From: an uncultured Acetatifactor sp.
GTDB taxonomy: Bacteria; Bacillota; Clostridia; Lachnospirales; Lachnospiraceae
NCBI GenBank assembly: GCA_944384205.1
Contig: CALWSL010000023.1
Coordinates: forward strand, 1 to 43,958
DNA length: 43,958 nucleotides
Direction of reading: 5' to 3'
Made by a program: the position numbers and the translations under genes. The notes under the pieces were generated by a model. The model was not told where the DNA came from, made no database searches, and worked only from the letters and a program-made list of their open reading frames with translations. Below, piece by piece: positions 5,320 through 43,958 of the stretch (within the stretch, counting starts at the first letter, position 1; each line of letters opens with the position of its first letter).

Positions 5320-5335
5320 AGTTTCTGAACCAAAT

Positions 5336-5424
5336 AACGCTAGGGGAGCACATCGCTGAGATTGAATCAGAAAGATTCTGACCCTCACTACTTGAACCGG
5401 ATAATACCGGCGGAAGGAAGCAAT
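5336..5424 (+). promoter_or_regulatory. TPP riboswitch (THI element)
   Basis: The conserved blocks of the thiamine pyrophosphate aptamer occur in order: AGGGGAGC at 5342, the CTGAGA core at 5356-5361, a variable stem, ACCCTC around 5381, then GAACCGGATAATACCGGCG and GGAAGGA near 5420. Binding of TPP would switch off expression of the thiT gene that follows. The CTGAGA and GATAATACC motifs with conserved spacing make the identification firm. The boundaries are good to a few bases. Confidence 0.93.
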
Positions 5425-5471
5425 ATCATTGGAGTTTACGAACGGTATTCCGATGGTAATCCGATGTAGTC

Positions 5472-29488: not shown

Positions 29489-29522
29489 CAAAAAACTCCC
29501 GTCCTTCAAAAGGACGAGAGTC
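29489..29522 (-). terminator. T-box terminator stem
   Basis: On the minus strand CTCTCGTCCT and AGGACGGGAG form a strong stem with a TTTGA-type loop followed by TTTTTT. It lies directly after the T-box sequence. Uncharged tRNA-Tyr would favour the competing antiterminator. Confidence 0.88.
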
Positions 29523-29800
29523 TAATCATCTCGCGATACCACCTAATGTTTATAAACAGCTCACGCTGTTTACCTCTTCGAGTACGACCATGCGGCTTAT
29601 ACTCTAGCACGTTAACGGATGCAGGAACCGTCGCAGCCTACTATCCACAAATTTCGCAGAATTCGGTGCGAAGCTCAAAGATGTATTCACACAAAGCTTC
29701 CCATGCGCTTCTCATCAGCCAGCCACTTTCTGTATGTTTCCCTCTGTGCTACTTCTTCTTATCATTGCTTTTCTTAATCAAATCACTTGAATATGAAATT
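29490..29800 (-). promoter_or_regulatory. T-box riboswitch (tRNA-Tyr responsive) for tyrS
   Basis: The conserved T-box, read on the minus strand as AGGTGGTATCGCGAG, occupies about 29531-29545. About 140 bases upstream, stem I carries GAATACATC, whose UAC (complement of 29683-29685) is the Tyr specifier codon in the expected position. The leader runs from a transcription start near 29800 to the terminator at 29489-29522. Between terminator and tyrS lies a further inverted repeat, GCGCGAATG / CATTCGCGC (29453-29489), which is not part of the standard T-box. Confidence 0.92.
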
Positions 29801-35166: not shown

Positions 35167-35240
35167 AGATATCACGTTCCTTTTCTGACTATAATTGATG
35201 TTTCAATTATATCATGCAGGGCGGGAATTTGCATCCTGTT

Positions 35241-35408
35241 TCAGCTTTCAACCAGGAGAGTATTATTATCTTTTATTTTTTCCTTTACAATTTCAAGAAT
35301 ATCTTTCTTATATGCTCCTCTCAAATTTAAATTTTCAAACCAATATTCCCTTACGAAATTTTGCGTAGAATCAATGATTGCTTTGCAATCCATTACGATA
35401 ACATCCAT
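35241..35408 (-). CDS. Small hypothetical protein coupled to the broken DUF5680 gene
   Basis: A 55-residue frame, MDVIVMDCKAIIDSTQNFVR through KEKIKDNNTLLVES. Its ATG overlaps the stop codon of the upstream frame as TAATG, a typical translational-coupling arrangement. The composition is plausible for a real small soluble protein, but I recognise no family and there is no independent ribosome binding site. It could be a genuine small partner or chance. Confidence 0.35.
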   Translation of the reverse strand: MDVIVMDCKAIIDSTQNFVREYWFENLNLRGAYKKDILEIVKEKIKDNNTLLVES

Positions 35409-36052
35409 TAACGAATAATGCCTCCATGAAAATAACACTCGTAAATTTTTTCATTCCTGCAAAATATTTCTTCATATCCTTGAAACCAAATGAATTCACC
35501 ATCTACTTTGCAGTGATAATGATAGTCACCTTTTGTATAAATCTCCGGTCCGCGAAATGGTAATTCTGCCGGTACAGCCCTGAGTACCTCTTTCAAAAAA
35601 TCACCGCTAAAGTTCTCGCCAATTACCCGTCCTGCATAATTCATACTCCAAACGGGATTTTCATGAAGCCATACCGCTTCCTCACCTGCAAAACATTCTC
35701 CACCCAAATAAGAGTCGTAATATGTATAACCACTATTATTCTCATAACAAAAATCATGAGAATTTGTCCGGGAAGATTTTGTCTGATTTTCTGCTGCCGC
35801 ATAGGTATTCCTTTTTGCCTGAAGAAGAAAAGCTGCTATTTTGTTTCTATCAATATTACCATTAGGAAAAAAAGAAATATTGCATTCATCATTTTCTTTT
35901 ACCATACGATCAATGGTTACAACCATAAAGTTCACTCAGCAAAATCAATCCATTGAGTTCTGGTACTGCTTGTCCATTTTCCCATTTACTAATTGTTTGT
36001 TCTTCTGTCAAGTAAGGACTAAAAAAAATTTTAATTTTTTTTGATTTCTGCA
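35408..36052 (-). pseudogene. XRE HTH-DUF5680 gene, frameshifted and lacking part of the HTH
   Basis: The main frame (from about 35935) encodes VTIDRMVKENDECNISFFPN and a C-terminal domain with VWSMNYAGRVIGENFSGDFL, EVLRAVPAELPFRGPEIYTK, GEFIWFQGYEEIF and YECYFHGG, matching what I remember of DUF5680. In another frame just upstream (35910-36052) lies LTEEQTISKWENGQAVPELN GLILLSELYG, an XRE helix-turn-helix. The two join if one T is removed from GGTTGTAACC (complement of 35915-35924), restoring LYGVTIDRMVKEND, the usual linker. About ten residues between TEEQ and TISKWENG, where helix 2 and part of helix 3 belong, are also missing. Hence a broken regulator. The nearby recombinase remnant suggests the damage came with an integration or excision. 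Confidence 0.65.
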
Positions 36053-36064
36053 CAAGTCCGTATA

Positions 36065-36712
36065 TCAACCGCACTTGTGCATAGTTTCCAAGTCAAAGAA
36101 ACCGCTATCAAAACTCCAACATATTTCTATTCTATTATCGGAATATACATTCACTTTGTCAATCAGCTTCTCTTTTATTTCTTCCGTAAGTTCCATCTGA
36201 TCAACATAGCAGTTCAACTGACTGATATTCTTTTCTATCTGTTGGTTACTCTCCTGCTGTATTTCCTGTCTGCTCTGAAGTTCATATAGCCTCTGCTCCA
36301 GCCTTGCAGTTTCTTCATCGTATTTCTTCTTTTCCACAAGGAAGTCCTCTCTTGATAGCTTTCCATCCGTGTATTGCTCATAGAGTGGCATCCATGTCTT
36401 TTTCATTGTAGCTATGGTCTTGATTAAAGTTGCAATCTCCGCACCCTCAGAGTAGGGAATGGTTTTATTCCTTGCATTTTTAGATAACTCTGCTTCTTTC
36501 ACAAGCAACTGTATCTGTTGCTTCAATGCTGTCAACACAACCTTATCGGTTTCCTCAACTCTTATAACAGCACTTCGGCATCTACACTCTTTTACCAAGT
36601 ACCTCTGATTACACCTAAGTATGCCCTTATCGCCTTGCATTTTTCTACCACAATAACCACAGTGATAAATATTCCTGCCAGACTTACCACTTACCCTAGT
36701 ACTGCATCCACG
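36065..36712 (-). pseudogene. C-terminal remnant of a large serine recombinase
   Basis: The open frame begins after an in-frame stop (36713-36715) with no start codon: GKSGRNIYHCGYCGRKMQGD, then RCNQRYLVKECRCR, the zinc beta-ribbon of large serine recombinases, then a long charged coiled-coil (KTWMPLYEQYTDGKLSREDF, EETARLEQRLYELQSRQEIQ) and a family-like end (VDQMELTEEIKEKLIDKVNV). The N-terminal catalytic resolvase domain with the nucleophilic serine is missing, and the fragment abuts the stop of the HAD-glycosyltransferase gene within seven bases. It is an inactive scar of an integrative element. A GCACAAGT/ACTTGTGC inverted repeat sits at its end (36051-36081). Confidence 0.75.
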
Positions 36713-36721
36713 TTACATAAA

Positions 36722-37996
36722 TTAAACATATCTTTCAAAAACTTTTTTAAGATTTATATCTTTGTCAATCAAGAGATACAAATTATTTGCATCAACAAAT
36801 GTAAACTCTCCTATTGCTTTTTCTAATACTCTGGAAAACAATGCAACTTCCGTTTCCTTATATTTTTTCATAAAATACTCTAGATTTGTTATTAACTGAC
36901 TTCTCTCATCTTTGCCCCGATAATGTTTTTGATGATAATTTATTGCCTCAGGTGCCATAACAAATCTATATCCCTCCCTATATAATTGATATAGAAATTC
37001 GTTATCTTCTCCTCCCCAGCCGATAAAATTAGTATCAAACTCTTTATCTATTATAGCTGCTCTTTCCATAGCTACATTTCCTGTTGTGCCGATAGCCCAT
37101 CCAAAAACAAATCCCTCTAGATTCTCTCCATATTTTTCAAATACTTCAGAATAATTATCCACTGTCTCTGTAAATACAAGTTTATATAAATATTTCTCGA
37201 AATTTTCTCGCGATGTACATTTCAATAATTCCACTTTATTATCCATAAGCTCTTCTTTTGAGATTTTAGTTAATAGTAATTCTACATCCGCTTTCTTCAT
37301 TTTCATTTTAGAATCCCACTTTGTAAACACCTCATATTTACTACCTATCGAAATACTATGTTCTTTTTTTTGTAGCCTTTTATAATGCATCTCTAAATAT
37401 GTACTTTTAGGTATCCGGTCATCATCATTAAAAACTACGATTTCTCCTCTTATATATTGGATTCCCAAATTCTTAGCTTTTGCTCTTCCCTTATTTTTCT
37501 GATATAAGTATTGGATGTCCATTACTTTACTATATTTATCTACAACCTGTTTTGTTGCATCACTACTACCATCATCAATAATAATAATTTCAAAGCTTCG
37601 AAATGTCTGAAACTCAAATCCTTTAAGAGTCAAATCTAAATAAAACGCTTTATTATATGTAGGTATGATATAACTCTTCTTTTTTCCATACGCAATAATT
37701 TTCAGACTGTTATCCTTACAAAATAAATGGTCCAATTGTTTTAAAACTTTTTTTTCAATGCTCCTAATTACCTGTATTTCTTGTAGAAAAGGATCATATA
37801 CAGCTGCACCATTATTTATTACAATTGGATAATTGGCAAATGGTATAAATTTTTTTATTTGTTCATATCCTCTTCCAGTCGCCATTGAAAATAAATTACC
37901 TTTTTTTCTCCATCGTAATATAGCTAATTTATTTTTTAATGATATCTTATTTTTATTAAGCAAAGTCCCATCTAAATCACTTACTATTATTTTCAT
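36722..37996 (-). CDS. Fusion of a truncated HAD phosphatase domain with a family-2 glycosyltransferase
   Basis: 424 residues. Residues 1-105 are the N-terminus of a Cof-type HAD protein: IIVSDLDGTLLNKNKISLKN (motif I, Asp7/Asp9), SMATGRGYEQIKKF (motif II) and YPIVINNGAAVYDP. The cap and motifs III and IV are absent, so phosphatase activity is unlikely. At about 108 the chain switches to a GT-A glycosyltransferase: SYIIPTYNKAFYLDLTLKGF, IIIIDDGSSDATKQVV, NKGRAKAKNLGIQY, the metal-binding DDD at 191-193, and a galactosyltransferase-like C-terminal region with GWGGEDNEFLYQLYREGYRF. The fusion is in one uninterrupted frame. Its ATG overlaps the stop of the preceding HAD gene (TAATG). AT-rich codon use matches the cassette. 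It may be a recent deletion fusion or a functional two-domain protein. Confidence 0.75.
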   Translation of the reverse strand: MKIIVSDLDGTLLNKNKISLKNKLAILRWRKKGNLFSMATGRGYEQIKKFIPFANYPIVINNGAAVYDPFLQEIQVIRSIEKKVLKQLDHLFCKDNSLKIIAYGKKKSYIIPTYNKAFYLDLTLKGFEFQTFRSFEIIIIDDGSSDATKQVVDKYSKVMDIQYLYQKNKGRAKAKNLGIQYIRGEIVVFNDDDRIPKSTYLEMHYKRLQKKEHSISIGSKYEVFTKWDSKMKMKKADVELLLTKISKEELMDNKVELLKCTSRENFEKYLYKLVFTETVDNYSEVFEKYGENLEGFVFGWAIGTTGNVAMERAAIIDKEFDTNFIGWGGEDNEFLYQLYREGYRFVMAPEAINYHQKHYRGKDERSQLITNLEYFMKKYKETEVALFSRVLEKAIGEFTFVDANNLYLLIDKDINLKKVFERYV

Positions 37997-38685
37997 TACA
38001 TTTCCAAATATAAAATAGCGTCTATCAGTTTGGTTATTCTATTGCATTCAAATATGCCATCCAACGCATCTACACTATCATACAAAATTGCCTCAATCCC
38101 GACAGCATTAGCTCCAACTATATCACTATAATATGTATCACCTACAAAAAGTACCTCTGCACTGTCAAATCCAGATATTTCTAAGAAATAGTCAAAAATT
38201 TTAGTGTCCGGCTTTTCAACACCTACTATCCCTGAATCCACAATAAAATCAAAATAATGTAATATGTCTAAGTCTTTCAGCACTTGTCTTAGATGTCCAT
38301 CCCAATTTGACATAATACCTATTGACAAATTATACTCTTTTAACTTGTCCAGCAATTCAATTGCCCCTTCTTCAATAGTATACTTGATTGGAAGCAATGA
38401 GTTAACGGCATGCTCTATTAAATCCTGCCGAGTTAAAGTACAAATTCCTCCTTCCCTTAGACCGATTCTATAGTATTCCTCCCAAAACTTCTTCTGATTA
38501 ACATCTTGGTCTTTATAATTTTTCTGCCAAAATATTTCACTAGCTTTGCTGGCTAAACTCCAGTTAAATTTTTCAAAATTATATTTCAAATTTTTAATAC
38601 AAACCTTTTCAAAAAGCCTATTTTTAGAACACCCATACATATTAAAAATTGTATGACATCCATCTAAAACCACTATTTTTTTCAT
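37996..38685 (-). CDS. HAD-superfamily (type IA) phosphatase with an unusual motif I
   Basis: 229 residues. Motif I is VVLDGCHTIFN: the nucleophile Asp8 is present but the usual second Asp (DxD) is replaced by Cys, a pattern resembling DLFHTL-type HAD proteins. Motif II is SIGIMSNWDGHLRQVL, motif III Lys in GVEKPDTKIFDYFL, and motif IV FVGDTYYSDIVGANAVGI. An alpha-helical cap lies at about 20-90. Phosphoglycolate phosphatase-like or a dedicated biosynthetic phosphatase is possible. Its ATG overlaps the stop of the upstream queC-like fragment (ATGA), and its own stop overlaps the start of the HAD-glycosyltransferase, so the three are read as one unit. Confidence 0.8.
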   Translation of the reverse strand: MKKIVVLDGCHTIFNMYGCSKNRLFEKVCIKNLKYNFEKFNWSLASKASEIFWQKNYKDQDVNQKKFWEEYYRIGLREGGICTLTRQDLIEHAVNSLLPIKYTIEEGAIELLDKLKEYNLSIGIMSNWDGHLRQVLKDLDILHYFDFIVDSGIVGVEKPDTKIFDYFLEISGFDSAEVLFVGDTYYSDIVGANAVGIEAILYDSVDALDGIFECNRITKLIDAILYLEM

Positions 38686-39175
38686 ACTTTTTTTGCCTTT
38701 TCCATAGCCAACAGAAATTCTCTTCTTCGTCCTACCGAATCATGTTTCCCGGTTCTAGCCTGCATCCTTTTTATATACTCCGGAATTCGTTCCCACGTAA
38801 TCGGATCTTCTTCATATTCTTCAATAATCCCATTATTATACATTCCAACCCAACGTCTCAAACAGCTAGAACAACGACCACACTGATACTTATTTCCTGT
38901 GAAACAAGAATAGGACATTTTTAACCATTCTTTGTTATGTCCTTGATTAATATACCATTCTATCATTTCTGTCTTTGTCATATTCCAAAAAGGACTCTTT
39001 ACATGTATTGGTCTTTCCTTTAATTTAGACAAAAACATACTCATTGCATCAAAAATCTCTGGTGTTTTATCATGATTATAATCACCATCTACTGCTGCCA
39101 TCCATATATTGCCTCCATAATTTGATGCTAACATCGCAAGATATCAAAACTCTCTTCGGTTTTTAAAAAATACAT
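38682..39175 (-). pseudogene. queD'-queC' scar: QueD-like start joined to the C-terminal part of a QueC-like 7-cyano-7-deazaguanine synthase
   Basis: The 3' part (150 codons from 39134) carries GDYNHDKTPEIFDAMS, VKSPFWNMTKTEMIEWYINQ and the zinc site CFTGNKYQCGRCSSC (Cys77, 85, 88, 91), as in QueC; the N-terminal PP-loop (SGGxDS) needed for ATP use is absent. Upstream, a good GGAGG site precedes an ATG at 39175 reading MYFLKTEESFDILRC and then a stop. That start strongly resembles QueD (6-carboxytetrahydropterin synthase), whose next residues would be AAHF. A one-base change near 39136 would put both parts in one frame. I infer that a deletion removed most of queD, anything between, and the front of queC. 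The QueC-like part is well supported; the QueD identity rests on about 11 residues. Confidence 0.6.
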
Positions 39176-39228
39176 TATCTATTCCTCCTCTACTTGTTTA
39201 TTGATAATACATTAACACAAAAATCATT

Positions 39229-39945
39229 ACCACCCGTAAAACGGGTGGTTTGCTCCGGGCTATAAGCCCGTGTTACCGGCCAGCGCCTAAAGACGCTGGC
39301 TTTCACTTTACGTTCAAGCCACTACGCCCTTGACTCGTCGCCGCCCTTCAAAGGGCGTCCGTACTACCGGCTACCCCTTGAAGGGGTCCTCGTACTCCTT
39401 CACACTGAGTTTATCCTGCATGATATCGTACTTCTCCTGGTCTTGTATATACTTTTTTATGGTTGCCTCGTTGAGTCCTACCGTACTTACATAGTATCCT
39501 TCTGACCAGAAATGTCTGTTCCCAAATTTATACTTTAAGTTTGCGTGCTTATCGAAAATCATAAGTGCACTTTTTCCCTTTAAGTATCCCATGAACTGTG
39601 ACACACTGTATTTCGGCGGTATGCTTACTAACATATGGATGTGGTCGGGCATAAGATGCCCTTCTATAATCTCTACTCCTTTGTATGCACAGAGCTGTTT
39701 CAAAATATCTCTAATGCTTTCTTTGTATTGATTATAAATTATTTTTCGTCTATACTTTGGAGTGAAGACGATATGGTACTTACACATCCACTTTGTATGT
39801 GCTAAATCGTTGGTCTTGTTGGCCATTTTAATCACCTTTCCTTTCTATAGTAGTGGCTTGGACACCTCTATTATACGGCGGAAAGGTGATTGTGCTATAA
39901 GCACTTGCCCACCACCCGCATAGCAGGTGGTTTATTGTTTCGCAC
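39229..39945 (-). mobile_element. IS200/IS605-family insertion sequence (tnpA only)
   Basis: The element encloses the TnpA gene at 39371-39826. Terminal subterminal hairpins are visible at both ends: ACCACCCG-TAAAA-CGGGTGGT at 39231-39252 and ACCACC...GGTGGT at 39916-39935. Between the right-hand hairpin and tnpA lie more hairpins (GGGCT/AGCCC, CCAGCG/CGCTGG, CGCCCTTTGAAGGGCG). As expected for this family there are no terminal inverted repeats or target duplications, so outer limits are approximate. It is inserted between the queD-queC scar and the terminator of the nitrilase-exporter genes. Confidence 0.8.
39371..39826 (-). CDS. tnpA: IS200-type Y1 transposase TnpA
   Basis: 151 residues from the ATG at 39826 (AAAGGTGAT upstream; an in-frame GTG three codons earlier overlaps that site). 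It is a single-strand HUH/Y1 transposase. KWMCKYHIVFTPKYRRK opens the protein; the HUH pair is His62/His64 in LMPDHIHMLVSIPP; the catalytic tyrosine is Tyr126 in NEATIKKYIQDQEKYD. FWSEGYYVSTVG is a conserved block. Length and motifs are complete, so it may be active. No tnpB is present, as in IS200 proper. Confidence 0.93.
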   Translation of the reverse strand: MANKTNDLAHTKWMCKYHIVFTPKYRRKIIYNQYKESIRDILKQLCAYKGVEIIEGHLMPDHIHMLVSIPPKYSVSQFMGYLKGKSALMIFDKHANLKYKFGNRHFWSEGYYVSTVGLNEATIKKYIQDQEKYDIMQDKLSVKEYEDPFKG

Positions 39946-40000
39946 ATCTCCATTTCTCCGTTGGGAGAAACTCCGATGCACTCAACAGGCTAAAGCCCAT

Positions 40001-40042
40001 AAAAAAATGCATTTCAACGAACTATAGTTCATTGAAATGCAT
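40001..40042 (-). terminator. Strong terminator of the exporter-nitrilase operon
   Basis: On the minus strand ATGCATTTCAA-GAAC, a four-base loop, and the complementary arm form an almost perfect stem, followed by TTTTTTT. It lies about 30 bases after the nitrilase stop and a few tens of bases before the IS200 end. Confidence 0.88.
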
Positions 40043-40074
40043 ACAATCATTCCTATTATTCTGCTTATCAAATA

Positions 40075-40782
40075 TTAATCTGAAAGTTTGACAAATCTAT
40101 CCGGCAATCTATCTCTTAAATACATATACTTCTTTTCGAAGCTCTTTTCCAAATCTACATTTACAATAATACATCCATACGAATTTCTGCTCTCACCTAT
40201 AACTCTGCCATCTGGTGCAATCGCATATGCAATTGGAATTGTTCCATTATAATGAGAACAGCCAAACACATACACCTCATTTTCAATTGCACGAGCTCTA
40301 GCTAACGCAAGCCACTGCTCATACTGTAAATCATTATACATTCCGGTACCAATTAAATTTACTAAACAGCATGGATTCTCCAGACTCATCACTCTCGCAA
40401 CCTCTGGAAAATGAATTTCATAACATATAGGAATTCCAATAATGCCATACTTACTTTCAATACAATAAATACTACTTCCAGCAGCCCTACCCTTAGCCTT
40501 TTCTGCTTGTGACAAAATATTTTTTTGATACTCTCCAATAATCTTACCGTTATCTATAATAACCGCTTTTTGGCAAGACGCACTTTCGGTCCTTAATACT
40601 AATCCTGAGATGATAAATTTATTAAATGTTTGACTTATTTCAACTGCATAATCTAAATCCCCCTCCGACAAAAAACCTTCAGGAAAAATATATATGTCTG
40701 CTTCTTGTATTGTTAACATTTTTTTAATTTCTGACATTGCATCATCTTTATTCGGTACTACTAATGCTATTTTCAGGTTCAT
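40075..40782 (-). CDS. Carbon-nitrogen hydrolase (nitrilase/amidase superfamily)
   Basis: 235 residues from the ATG at 40782 with GAGAGGG upstream; an earlier in-frame start would overlap the permease gene. The catalytic triad of the superfamily is seen: Glu35 in YIFPEGFLS, Lys87 in GEYQKNILS, Cys120 in GIIGIPICYEIHFPEVAR. Such enzymes hydrolyse or transfer amide bonds (omega-amidase, carbamoylase, beta-ureidopropionase types). The protein is short of the usual 260-280 residues but the core is complete. It is the last gene before the terminator and follows the two exporter permeases by 26 bases. The location suggests a role in making, tailoring or disarming the exported compound. Confidence 0.82.
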   Translation of the reverse strand: MNLKIALVVPNKDDAMSEIKKMLTIQEADIYIFPEGFLSEGDLDYAVEISQTFNKFIISGLVLRTESASCQKAVIIDNGKIIGEYQKNILSQAEKAKGRAAGSSIYCIESKYGIIGIPICYEIHFPEVARVMSLENPCCLVNLIGTGMYNDLQYEQWLALARARAIENEVYVFGCSHYNGTIPIAYAIAPDGRVIGESRNSYGCIIVNVDLEKSFEKKYMYLRDRLPDRFVKLSD

Positions 40783-40808
40783 ATACTTTTCCCTCTCCCG
40801 TTTATATG

Positions 40809-41606
40809 TCATGAGCCACACGGACTACTATAATTCTTTAATCCAAAGGCAAAAAATTTTTTTGCTCCCATCACCATGACCATTGCAACAAATGGTGTTG
40901 CATAAGTGTAACACATATATTTATCTAAGTCAAATAGCAAAGTAGCTGAAAAAAAGGAAGTATATGCATATGGTACTACAAAAATTAAAAACTTCTGAAG
41001 AAACGGATGAAATATCGTAATAGGATACCGGACCAATTGACGAAGGCTATCTATCATAACTGTAGCATTGGTAACTTCCGTAAACCAGAACGATAATGTT
41101 TCCATAAAAACAGTTATTGAAAAAATAATAAATGCGCCTGAAATCACGCATATAACAAGCCAGATAACTTTCCAACATCCTACATAAATATTTGTATTAA
41201 TAAACCCAAATATCAAATAAATAATGCCACAGATAGTCAATATAAAACCGTGTATATTAGTACCATCCACTACTAGCAAAAAGAGCGTATTGGCAGGTTT
41301 AGTCAAATAACCATCTAGACTTCCAGAGTGTACGTGTTTACTTATTGACCAAACATTATGTAAAAAAAATTCTTCTATCCCCATAGGTAATAAATAACAG
41401 CCCAACAAAATTAAACATTCTCCAAAATCAAATCCTCCCAAAGTATCTACATTATTATATACAATTATTGTGCAAAACAGAGACGAAATTTGTATAATAA
41501 GATGTGCAAATACTCCAACAGCAAAATCTAACTTATATGAGGTACTTTCACGCATATTTTTATATAACATTCCACTATACAATAATATATACTTTTTAAC
41601 CGCCAT
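40809..41606 (-). CDS. ABC-2 type transporter permease (PF06182/COG3694-like)
   Basis: 265 residues with about six hydrophobic segments (for example GVFAHLIIQISSLFCTIIVY, VIWLVICVISGAFIIFSITV, PFVAMVMVMGAKKFFAFGL). The segments VHSGSLDGYLTKPANTLFLL and RQLVRYPITIFHPFLQKFLI match the ABC-2 permease family found in pairs with COG4587 permeases and COG4586 ATPases. It forms half of the membrane channel. Its ATG overlaps the stop of the upstream permease by 11 bases. Exported substrate unknown. Confidence 0.85.
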   Translation of the reverse strand: MAVKKYILLYSGMLYKNMRESTSYKLDFAVGVFAHLIIQISSLFCTIIVYNNVDTLGGFDFGECLILLGCYLLPMGIEEFFLHNVWSISKHVHSGSLDGYLTKPANTLFLLVVDGTNIHGFILTICGIIYLIFGFINTNIYVGCWKVIWLVICVISGAFIIFSITVFMETLSFWFTEVTNATVMIDSLRQLVRYPITIFHPFLQKFLIFVVPYAYTSFFSATLLFDLDKYMCYTYATPFVAMVMVMGAKKFFAFGLKNYSSPCGS

Positions 41607-42405
41607 TTATTGTTATACTCCTTATCGCCTTTCTATATATCAACTCATCCAAGTATAGTAACATAACCACCCAAATGAACTGAATCATCAATTGCATTTT
41701 TCTCTCTTCTACAGAATATTTCTCTAGAAATATCATTACTGGTGTATAAACCATTTTTTCAAAAGGCATATAGGAAAATAACTTTTGTATCTTTTGTGGG
41801 AAAAATGAAATTGGAATTAATGCACCAGACAAAAGATCAACTATAGCTTTTTTAGCATTATATATCCCCCAAAAATTCATTGTAAAAAAAGTAAGATATC
41901 CCGCTAATATACTAATACTAAACATTATCATATAACTAAAGCAACTACTTAATCCAAAGAATAAGTAAACATTAATATTCGACGGAAGTTCAAAACCGTC
42001 CGAACTTACTGTCCAAAAAATAATCATAAAAAAAGCCAATACAATATTAATCAAACTATCTCCCATGTTTTCAAAAAAACGTGCTCGCATAAAATGTATT
42101 GGTCTTGCAAGCTCGTACACAATATCCCCTTGTCTGATTTTTTTTGAAATCATTCGTTCTGGTGCATTTCTAAAAGAAAAAATTACAACAAGACTCTGAC
42201 TTACCATTAAATAAGTAAACATGTCTCTTTTATCTAATCCATTAATAGTTACTTTTTGCATATACACTTGCGACCAAATCGCAATTTGAATTGCTATTTG
42301 AAGTAATGACCCAATTATCCCTGAAATAAACGAGAATTTATATTTTGTAGACATCTTTAACTGTATCTCAAATATCCCTACATACTTATGTATTGATTTC
42401 CACAT
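41596..42405 (-). CDS. ABC-2 type transporter permease (COG4587-like)
   Basis: 269 residues, about six transmembrane helices (SGIIGSLLQIAIQIAIWSQV, INIVLAFFMIIFWTVSS, YMIMFSISILAGYLTFFTMN and others). Family features are MISKKIRQGDIVYELARPIH between helices and LLSGALIPISFFPQKIQKLF after the central helices. It starts within the last 28 bases of the ATPase gene (42378-42405) and overlaps the next permease by 11 bases, so all three are translated as a unit and should form one exporter. Confidence 0.88.
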   Translation of the reverse strand: MWKSIHKYVGIFEIQLKMSTKYKFSFISGIIGSLLQIAIQIAIWSQVYMQKVTINGLDKRDMFTYLMVSQSLVVIFSFRNAPERMISKKIRQGDIVYELARPIHFMRARFFENMGDSLINIVLAFFMIIFWTVSSDGFELPSNINVYLFFGLSSCFSYMIMFSISILAGYLTFFTMNFWGIYNAKKAIVDLLSGALIPISFFPQKIQKLFSYMPFEKMVYTPVMIFLEKYSVEERKMQLMIQFIWVVMLLYLDELIYRKAIRSITINGG

Positions 42406-43373
42406 TGCTTGTATACCTCTTCTATTATATCCTCAATAGATGTTTCATCAATCTTAATATCTTTTACTACATATTGCGACGTAACCCAGTCAATCATTTG
42501 TTTAATCGGAGTATTTACCGGCATTCTAATAACGAGTTTATCATTTGTATAATTTACTGTAACTTTATGCTTCCACTCCCTTAAATCTAAATATTTATTT
42601 ATATCTTCCTTTAATGAAAAAGTTAAGACTCTTTCATTTTGGTATTGCCTCCTCAGTTGTTCAATAGTTCCATCATATATCATATCGCCATTAGCAATTA
42701 CAATAACTCTTGTTGCAAGCTGCTCTATATCACTCATATCATGTGTCGTTAAAACAATTGTACTTTTTCTTTCTTTGTTAACTTCGCAAATAAACTCCCT
42801 AATTTTTTTTTTAGAAGTAATATCTAATCCAATCGTTGGCTCATCTAAGTAGACAATTGACGGATTATGCAAAAAAGCCGCAGCCAAATCGCATCGCATT
42901 CGCTGTCCCAAGGACAACTGCCTTATAGGGCGTTCAATAAAACTTTCCATGTCTAATAATTCCATAAAATATGAAAGATTTTTTTTGTATGTCAAATCAT
43001 CAATTTCGTATATTTTTTTTAGTAGCAAAAAGGAATCTTTGACTGGCAAATCCCACCACAATTGTGTCCGATGTCCAAAAACTACTCCTATATTCTTTGC
43101 ATTTTGCTGACGCTTTTGATATGGAATAACGCCACATACTTTGACCTCTCCTCTTGTTGGAGTTAATATCCCAGTCATCATTTTTATCGTTGTGGACTTA
43201 CCAGCACCATTGGGACCTAAAAAGCCTACAATTTCACCTTCTGCAATTTCAAAGCTTAAATTTTTAACAGCCTTAACCTTCTTTCTATTTTTCTTTATAA
43301 GGTTTTCTAAAATTCCTTTTACTCCCATTTCTTTTGATTCATTAACATAAAAATCTTTTTGTAAATTTTTCAC
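42378..43373 (-). CDS. ABC exporter ATPase (COG4586-like)
   Basis: 331 residues. Walker A GFLGPNGAGKSTTIKMMTGI (about 50-70), Q-loop VFGHRTQLWWDLPVKDSFLL (this QLWWDLP signature is typical of COG4586), signature LSLGQRMRCDLAAAF, Walker B IVYLDEPTIGLD, and H-loop LTTHDMSD. The C-terminal about 90 residues after the ABC core are the usual extension. The start is a GTG (complement of 43371-43373) that overlaps the TAG of the truncated upstream gene (TAGTG), without a clear ribosome binding site of its own, so translation probably depends on coupling. Related loci export various small molecules; the substrate is unknown. Confidence 0.9.
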   Translation of the reverse strand: MKNLQKDFYVNESKEMGVKGILENLIKKNRKKVKAVKNLSFEIAEGEIVGFLGPNGAGKSTTIKMMTGILTPTRGEVKVCGVIPYQKRQQNAKNIGVVFGHRTQLWWDLPVKDSFLLLKKIYEIDDLTYKKNLSYFMELLDMESFIERPIRQLSLGQRMRCDLAAAFLHNPSIVYLDEPTIGLDITSKKKIREFICEVNKERKSTIVLTTHDMSDIEQLATRVIVIANGDMIYDGTIEQLRRQYQNERVLTFSLKEDINKYLDLREWKHKVTVNYTNDKLVIRMPVNTPIKQMIDWVTSQYVVKDIKIDETSIEDIIEEVYKQCGNQYISM

Positions 43374-43486
43374 TACTTATTCGTTTTCTTTCTGGACTTT
43401 TTCACTTTCTTTTTATAGTTGATGGCTTCGTCAATGTACTTGCTGTCAAGCTCGCTCATAGCATCGGAAAACTTTTTCGCGTTCAT
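43373..43486 (-). pseudogene. Truncated partner gene of the ECF-like sigma factor (38 codons)
   Basis: The frame MNAKKFSDAMSELDSKYIDE AINYKKKVKKSRKKTNK ends with TAG. As I recall, full-length relatives in Firmicutes continue after YKKK.. into a membrane anchor (WLKWGA-type) and a DUF4179-like outer domain, and act next to the sigma gene as anti-sigma-like proteins. Here the anchor and outer domain are gone, replaced by a Lys-rich tail and then the ABC transporter. The ATG overlaps the sigma stop (ATGA). Confidence 0.6.
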
Positions 43487-43958
43487 ACAAATACCTCTCT
43501 TTCAATCAAATATTGCTTCATCTTTTCGCGGATACGGGTCAGCCGGACGGAGATGTTTTTCTCCGAAAGCCCCATAAACTCGGCTATGTCCTTGTAGCTA
43601 TCGGCAAACCAATAGCGGCGCATGAAGATAACGCGGTTTTCGAGGGTCAGCGTGTCCAAAAATTCCTCAATGATACGGGCTAACTCTCTGGCTTCAATTT
43701 CATCTTCAACGGTTTTCTGGTCTGCGATACAGCCCTCGATTTCCTCTAAGGCAATCGTATAGTGTCCACTTCGTTTGGCTGCTTCCTTTCTCCAATAGAT
43801 TTTGAGTGAAATGTTCCGAACGATTTTCACAATGTAGGACAACAGCGGGTTGGGGCGTACCGGGGGAATAACGTTCCATGCTCCTAAGTAAGCGTCATTG
43901 ACACATTCCTCCGCGTCCTGCCTGTTGTTCACGATGTTATACGAGAGGTTGTGGCAGA
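43483..43958 (-). CDS. ECF-like RNA polymerase sigma factor, 5' end beyond the window
   Basis: At least 158 residues, running off the right edge: the frame is open back to 43958 with CHNLSYNIVNNRQDAEECVN. Region 2: DAEECVNDAYLGAWNVIPPV, LLSYIVKIVRNISLKIYWRK. Region 4: DTLTLENRVIFMRRYWFADS, then the helix-turn-helix YKDIAEFMGLSEKNISVRLT, ending REKMKQYLIEREVFV. This is a sigma-70 family factor of the short type found with DUF4179-like partners in Lachnospiraceae. It is complete at its 3' end. Its GC content is higher than that of the cassette that follows, marking an edge. Confidence 0.88.
   Translation of the reverse strand, partial: CHNLSYNIVNNRQDAEECVNDAYLGAWNVIPPVRPNPLLSYIVKIVRNISLKIYWRKEAAKRSGHYTIALEEIEGCIADQKTVEDEIEARELARIIEEFLDTLTLENRVIFMRRYWFADSYKDIAEFMGLSEKNISVRLTRIREKMKQYLIEREVFV

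Follow-up and report, generated by a model that had tools for sequence, protein, structure and literature searches.

The AT-rich block near one end of contig CALWSL010000023.1, from an uncultured Acetatifactor sp. of the Lachnospiraceae (assembly GCA_944384205.1), reads as imported DNA in decay, not as a novel pathway that works. The window analyzed is this whole contig of 43,958 nucleotides, and the block runs on the minus strand from about 43403 to 36705, between the broken partner gene of a sigma factor and the tail of a serine recombinase. We consider it probable that the block is an acquired, decaying segment of two transcription units, an intact-looking exporter and nitrilase unit and a dead 7-deazaguanine unit. 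Unit A comprises an ABC-2 exporter trio and the nitrilase. Unit B comprises the remains of queD and queC (queD'/queC'), a HAD hydrolase, and a partial HAD joined to a GT2 glycosyltransferase (HAD'-GT2).

A preliminary description had listed seven genes on one strand and proposed a single small-molecule cassette with dedicated export. Open reading frames and Pfam matches place all seven on the minus strand, from 43373 to 36722, plus one transposase; the description had overlooked this IS200/IS605 tnpA, a terminator-like hairpin, and the start of queD. It had also reported start/stop overlaps between nearly all genes. Four junctions have them (ABC ATPase/permease 1, permease 1/permease 2, queC/HAD, and HAD/HAD'-GT2). 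However, 26 bases separate permease 2 from the nitrilase when the latter starts at 40782, and the nitrilase and queC lie about 0.9 kb apart, with the hairpin and the insertion sequence (IS) in between. The predicted terminator after the nitrilase and the IS200/IS605 insertion therefore split the block into two units.

The queD'/queC' joint and the remains of unit B

The start of queD lies at 39128 to 39175 (minus strand), with a GAGGAGG box upstream. The ATG at 39175 opens 11 residues, MYFLKTEESFD, and a stop follows four codons on. Nine of the 11 residues are those of the QueD N termini of loci L083, L084, and L085, and eight are those of L086. Among 4128 starts on both strands of the window, this is the only one with 9/11 matches; the runner-up has 6/11. 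QueC sequence resumes in another frame (YLAMLASN...), at about residue 80 to 85 of full-length QueC. The remaining 3' part of queC, about 150 codons at 38682 to 39134 (minus strand; PF06508, 1.6e-10, profile positions 129 to 206 of 210), is without the PP-loop half and retains the C-terminal cysteine cluster. In the Lachnospira plasmid and the three actinobacterial plasmid clusters that we opened, queD precedes queC. The out-of-frame joint is most simply explained by a single deletion, which would have taken everything from queD codon 11 to the last ~150 codons of queC. The preliminary description had recognized the queC C terminus as a QueC-like fragment; it is not a simple fragment, being one side of an apparent deletion scar. 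The queD start supports the ancestor with queD and queC that the description had envisaged.

A PF01242 (QueD) profile search of the genome gave no match, and PF06508 revealed no other convincing QueC in the assembly. For QueE, the ten proteins scanned gave no radical SAM match and there is no room between queD' and queC'; QueE and FolE were not searched for elsewhere in the genome. Compared with a preQ0 cluster, QueD is reduced to 11 codons, QueC has lost its PP-loop half, and the cluster has no QueE. With only 11 codons of queD and part of queC, and no QueD or convincing QueC elsewhere, the known QueD-QueE-QueC route to 7-deazaguanine is therefore dead. An Rfam search of the window found no preQ1 riboswitch upstream of queD'. 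Its matches above the gathering score were a T-box leader (29507 to 29774, minus strand) and a TPP riboswitch (5332 to 5435, plus strand).

The next gene encodes a HAD hydrolase (37996 to 38685, minus strand; PF13419, 3.6e-18). As the preliminary description had remarked, its motif I is odd: it reads D-G-C-H-T, so that the second Asp of DxD is replaced. This Asp serves in phosphatase action, which its replacement may abolish. The last frame (36722 to 37996, minus strand; PF08282 and PF00535) consists of a Cof-type HAD, of which the first ~104 codons are present, joined in frame to a GT2 glycosyltransferase that is nearly complete. Its HAD half covers PF08282 profile positions 1 to 112 of 255, and PF00535 begins at residue 108. 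The GT2 part resembles chondroitin synthase 2z86 (1.1e-30). Among other genomes of the family, where at most four candidates per genome were scored, the GT2 matches listed begin at query residues 57 to 109, and none of those listed spans the HAD start and GT2. Searches for the HAD and HAD'-GT2 in viral contigs gave pattern matches and no relative. The "fusion" of the preliminary description is indeed one open frame, but from its partial HAD half it looks like a scar too. What raw sequence presents as a gene fusion can thus be the scar of a deletion. Taken as a whole, unit B would be what is left of a queD-...-queC 7-deazaguanine operon, with the HAD and the HAD'-GT2 joint after it.

The queC piece is 42 to 45% identical to three aligned QueCs of actinobacterial clusters and 23 to 35% identical to canonical ones. 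A tblastn search of plasmids gave 12 records, seven actinobacterial (44 to 46%) and, all at ~29 to 31%, three from Halorubrum and two from Lachnospira. The same search of annotated phages gave 19 records, and the matches listed have 24 to 33% identity. A pattern scan of genome contigs added 13 further actinobacterial QueC loci; its patterns were built from the window piece and three actinobacterial sequences, and it leans to actinobacteria. The 16 actinobacterial QueC loci are thus L025 to L027 (plasmids) and L032 to L044 (genomes). A tree of 28 rows, of which 26 differ, places the window QueC with 16 actinobacterial rows at a support of 95/91. Long branches are flagged in this tree, as is an unusual composition of the window row, and the 16 rows were found by searches seeded with the window piece. 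We suggest that a QueC of the actinobacterial cluster type once sat, with queD, in this genome.

We saw no other QueC of the window type in 99 relatives (E ≤ 1e-3) or in 397 family and 398 phylum genomes (E ≤ 1e-8), sets that overlap. Six genomes besides its own gave QueC matches, at 23 to 35% identity and with canonical SGG-type N termini. An LSSGGVDS-type QueC occurs together with a QueD in three of them (G070, G089, and G150). In G788, frames that by eye resemble QueD and QueE lie next to an SGGLDS-type QueC, G551 has an LLSGGLDS-type QueC, and G006 has an SGGMDS-type relative without QueD. Viral contigs scanned for the window type gave pattern matches and no relative. The preliminary description had advised looking for an intact version of the block with queD, queE, and queC, and none was found in the genomes searched.

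The exporter and nitrilase of unit A

Unit A begins with an ABC ATPase (42378 to 43373, minus strand; PF00005, 8.8e-29), followed by ABC-2 permease 1 (41596 to 42405, minus strand; PF06182, 1.3e-21) and ABC-2 permease 2 (40809 to 41606, minus strand; PF06182, 1e-42), both of the ABC2_membrane_6 family. This is the composition and order of an ABC-2 exporter trio, and the three-gene order is identical in six annotated plasmid loci. The ATPase also matches TIGR01188 (1.4e-61), but under the cut-off. Its GTG start aligns with an inner Val, Phe, or Leu of the four homologues shown, and a few N-terminal codons may have been lost. Permease 2 has a match in 40 of the 99 relatives, its own genome counted, and is only 17 to 27% identical to the matches listed among them. 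PADLOC ATPase models also matched the ABC protein (best, mad3, 9e-30); we set this match aside as generic ATPase similarity.

The trio has varied company elsewhere. In a Streptomyces camelliae plasmid (L132, 8116 to 11593), it lies directly after rosB and may therefore export roseoflavin; a literature search found no paper on roseoflavin with an ABC-2 exporter in Streptomyces. In a second Streptomyces plasmid, it is grouped with a sedoheptulose-7-phosphate cyclase, an aminotransferase, and a glycosyltransferase. In Rhizobium, it adjoins siderophore uptake genes. Because these contexts differ, biosynthetic sets in Streptomyces and siderophore uptake in Rhizobium, the exported substrate cannot be named. 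The trio of unit A would most likely export a small polar molecule.

The nitrilase-superfamily C-N hydrolase (40075 to 40782, minus strand; PF00795, 6.8e-22) probably starts at ATG 40782 and not at 40821, because its homologues begin there. A start/stop overlap with permease 2 was rejected on the same ground. Its nearest relatives, at 48 to 52% identity, are in G047, G361, and G379. Residues E35, K87, and C120 are invariant across the window protein and these three homologues, and presumably form the Glu-Lys-Cys catalytic triad of the superfamily. Nitrilase matches occur in 25 of the 99 relatives at E ≤ 1e-3, its own genome and G047 counted. The three homologues, all in genomes of the window's family, lie in three different contexts (L028, 9566 to 10264; L081, 9573 to 10298; L082, 9569 to 10273). 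The enzyme would hydrolyze an amide or nitrile, not necessarily of the exported molecule. With its open frames and the nitrilase's expected catalytic residues, unit A probably works as an exporter plus amidase.

Directly 3' of the nitrilase, and outside the IS element, is a predicted intrinsic terminator (40007 to 40042, minus strand), a 16-bp stem followed by a T run with a z score of -6.4 that was reached in 0/200 shuffles. The IS200/IS605-family element follows at about 39218 to 39945 (minus strand; extent taken from the best plasmid alignment). It encodes a Y1 transposase (tnpA, 39371 to 39835; PF01797, 1.3e-41), has subterminal hairpins, and is the sole copy detected in the genome assembly. 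Its guanine-plus-cytosine (GC) content is 0.435. At ~71 to 73% DNA identity to 20 plasmid copies listed, out of 102 records, it is an ordinary member of its family with tnpA alone.

Edges of the block

The left edge is a sharp step in composition. The sigma region (43404 to 43958, minus strand) has a GC content of 0.461 and a GC content at third codon positions (GC3) of 0.60, versus 0.26 to 0.35 and 0.21 to 0.28 for the genes inside the block; positions 1 to 32244 of the window have a GC content of 0.455. The block is thus clearly more AT-rich, as had been said. The sigma region holds a sigma factor gene with its 5' end cut and the first ~28 codons of the partner gene. Its DNA match to a locus of the same genus (L121) ends at 43404, within the partner gene that follows the sigma factor. 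The L121 frame of this partner gene runs on (398 aa), and the gene is therefore broken at 43404 in the window. The window is the entire contig and stops within the sigma gene, so the 5' end that the sigma gene lacks was cut off by the contig end. We rejected the same explanation for the partner gene, which is really broken, so that the truncation noted in the preliminary description stands. A search for the missing partner-gene tail elsewhere in the window gave only matches at E ≥ 0.87. The TAG of the broken gene and the GTG with which the ABC ATPase starts overlap (43373 to 43410), and translation of the exporter could thereby be coupled to the sigma operon.

At the right end is the C-terminal remnant of a large serine recombinase (36065 to 36712, minus strand), which the preliminary description had also recognized. 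It matches the PHROG 95 integrase (4.1e-16, profile positions 375 to 562 of 651), and a Zn_ribbon_recom match (3.9e-4) is under the cut-off. Its GC content is 0.40 and its GC3 is 0.45. A search of plasmids with the remnant gave no match. A DUF5680 gene adjoins the block (35408 to 36060, minus strand; PF18931, 6.3e-38). Just upstream of it, by eye, is the XRE-type helix-turn-helix part of the same gene, in another frame and without a start; the gene resembles a further pseudogene.

One cassette or two units

The term "degraded" in the preliminary description is well justified by the queD'/queC' scar, the HAD'/GT2 joint, the IS insertion, and the truncated flanking genes. We suggest that the AT-rich segment arrived by horizontal transfer and then decayed. 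The other part of that description, one cassette with dedicated export, gained no support from co-occurrence: the halves were not found together in the 3 nitrilase, 28 exporter, and 16 QueC loci opened. In the three nitrilase neighborhoods (20 kb), the trio permeases, QueC, HAD, and GT2 all lack a homologue. No nitrilase, QueC, HAD, or GT2 homologue was found at 19 genome exporter loci (1.5-kb flanks) or, at E ≤ 1e-3, at nine plasmid exporter loci. These nine were drawn from 17 and 10 overlapping records; L133 has an ATPase match without permeases. None of the 16 actinobacterial QueC loci, some of them cut by contig ends, carries the permeases or a nitrilase. The preliminary description had made such co-occurrence its own test. 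The outcome counts against one cassette, although it involved no true relative of the whole block, since no second Bacillota queC of the window type was found.

Several observations weigh against two unrelated units. Both units share their strand and a low GC3, as would suit a common source and perhaps a common pathway. The exporter trio lies within the natural-product gene sets of the two Streptomyces plasmids. Of the six annotated plasmid loci, two have annotated glycosyltransferases near the trio, although none there matched the GT2 of the window at E ≤ 1e-3. In two of the three nitrilase neighborhoods (L028 and L081), genes of ABC transporters of other types stand next to the nitrilase in the opposite orientation (ATPase matches of 9e-13 and 1e-20). 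The searches turned up no further copy of the entire block. Decay is also less clear-cut at two points. Two other PF06508 matches in the genome score 25.6 and 24.5 bits against a 22-bit cut-off; inside longer frames, they span no more than 45 and 71 positions at the N-terminal end of the profile, and we took them for putative other PP-loop proteins. AT-rich DNA resumes past the recombinase tail (DUF5680, 0.35; 35176 to 35407, 0.32; then 0.47), which leaves the right edge less certain: the broken gene shows it better than composition does.

Several of these points would suit a single degraded cassette. It would have made a glycosylated 7-deazaguanine compound, with the nitrilase acting on its nitrile, HAD/GT2 tailoring, and ABC-2 export, and would have lost its queDE part later. 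Boundaries common to all genes fit this, as do the queD start and queC tail, which point to a former queD...queC. The available text of the huimycin report (PMC7439116) describes 7-deazaguanine genes and a glycosyltransferase that together yield such a compound. HAD homologues, several of them weak, occur in 12 of the 16 actinobacterial QueC loci. HADs are common, so this co-occurrence is weak support for a queC-HAD link. However, the terminator separates the halves, and there is no QueC match in the nitrilase-bearing G047 or likewise in G361 and G379, taken as within the search of 397 family genomes. A literature search found no paper that joins 7-cyano-7-deazaguanine synthase, a nitrilase, and a glycosyltransferase in one gene cluster, and one for 7-deazaguanine gene clusters in Lachnospiraceae listed a single paper, on micronutrients. 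With the two halves apart in all the loci opened, we regard the single-cassette reading as unlikely. A bolder version is more doubtful still: the block would be what remains of a natural-product cluster for a 7-deazaguanine compound, of a kind not yet described in Bacillota. That cluster would have had an ABC-2 exporter of its own, a cyano-converting nitrilase, HAD/GT2 tailoring, and an actinobacterial-type QueC, and intact copies of it would persist in unsampled Lachnospiraceae-like bacteria.

A streamlined cassette that still works, with the QueC piece and HAD'-GT2 as functional new proteins, seems very improbable. The QueC piece does retain its C-terminal cysteines, its ATG at 39134 lies one base before the queD' stop, so that re-initiation is conceivable, and HAD'-GT2 is a single open frame. 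However, the QueC piece has no PP-loop half and stands behind an out-of-frame joint, the HAD half ends at less than half of its profile, and no GT2 match listed in other family genomes begins at the HAD start. Hardly credible is an assembly or binning artifact in which foreign sequence was wrongly joined. The composition jump at the left joint and a contig that ends in the sigma gene would allow it, but similar scars occur both within the block and at its ends, and the values given for the genome are 100% completeness and 1.58% contamination.

The decaying two-unit segment can be set beside several known systems. It is no Qat system: the QatC profile scores 25.2 bits (7e-6) against a cut-off of 280. 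PADLOC gave partial QueC (3.9e-10) and QatC (7.7e-6) matches, and the five proteins other than QueC and the ABC protein had none. No partner genes of the dpd DNA-modification island were recognized among the Pfam matches of the ten scanned proteins; the rest of the genome was not tested for them. The Lachnospira eligens plasmid L083 has the operon order queD-queE-folE-queC-queF, and its QueD provides one of the 9/11 N termini; its QueC is ~29% identical over 55% of the window piece and falls in the other tree group. According to the available text of PMC7439116, the huimycin and toyocamycin 7-deazapurine clusters have QueC, QueD, and QueE genes, and that of huimycin also has a glycosyltransferase. 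Those clusters are whole, whereas the window has 11 codons of queD, no queE, and part of queC, and the likeness drawn here is one of gene content.

An intact ancestral Bacillota cluster is possible, and an intact relative, if found, would be a 7-deazapurine product cluster outside actinobacteria. Among its nearest counterparts are the actinobacterial plasmid clusters L025 (11506 to 23408), L026 (6738 to 23666), and L027 (11760 to 23734). They contain queD, queE, queC, and a HAD, with a nucleoside 2-deoxyribosyltransferase in two of the three, and they carry an isomerase-like barrel, a ribulose-phosphate epimerase, a nucleotidyltransferase, and kinases. They look like a sugar- or nucleotide-activating 7-deazaguanine pathway. 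Their order is queD, queE, one or more other genes, and then queC, and the window keeps queD' before queC'.

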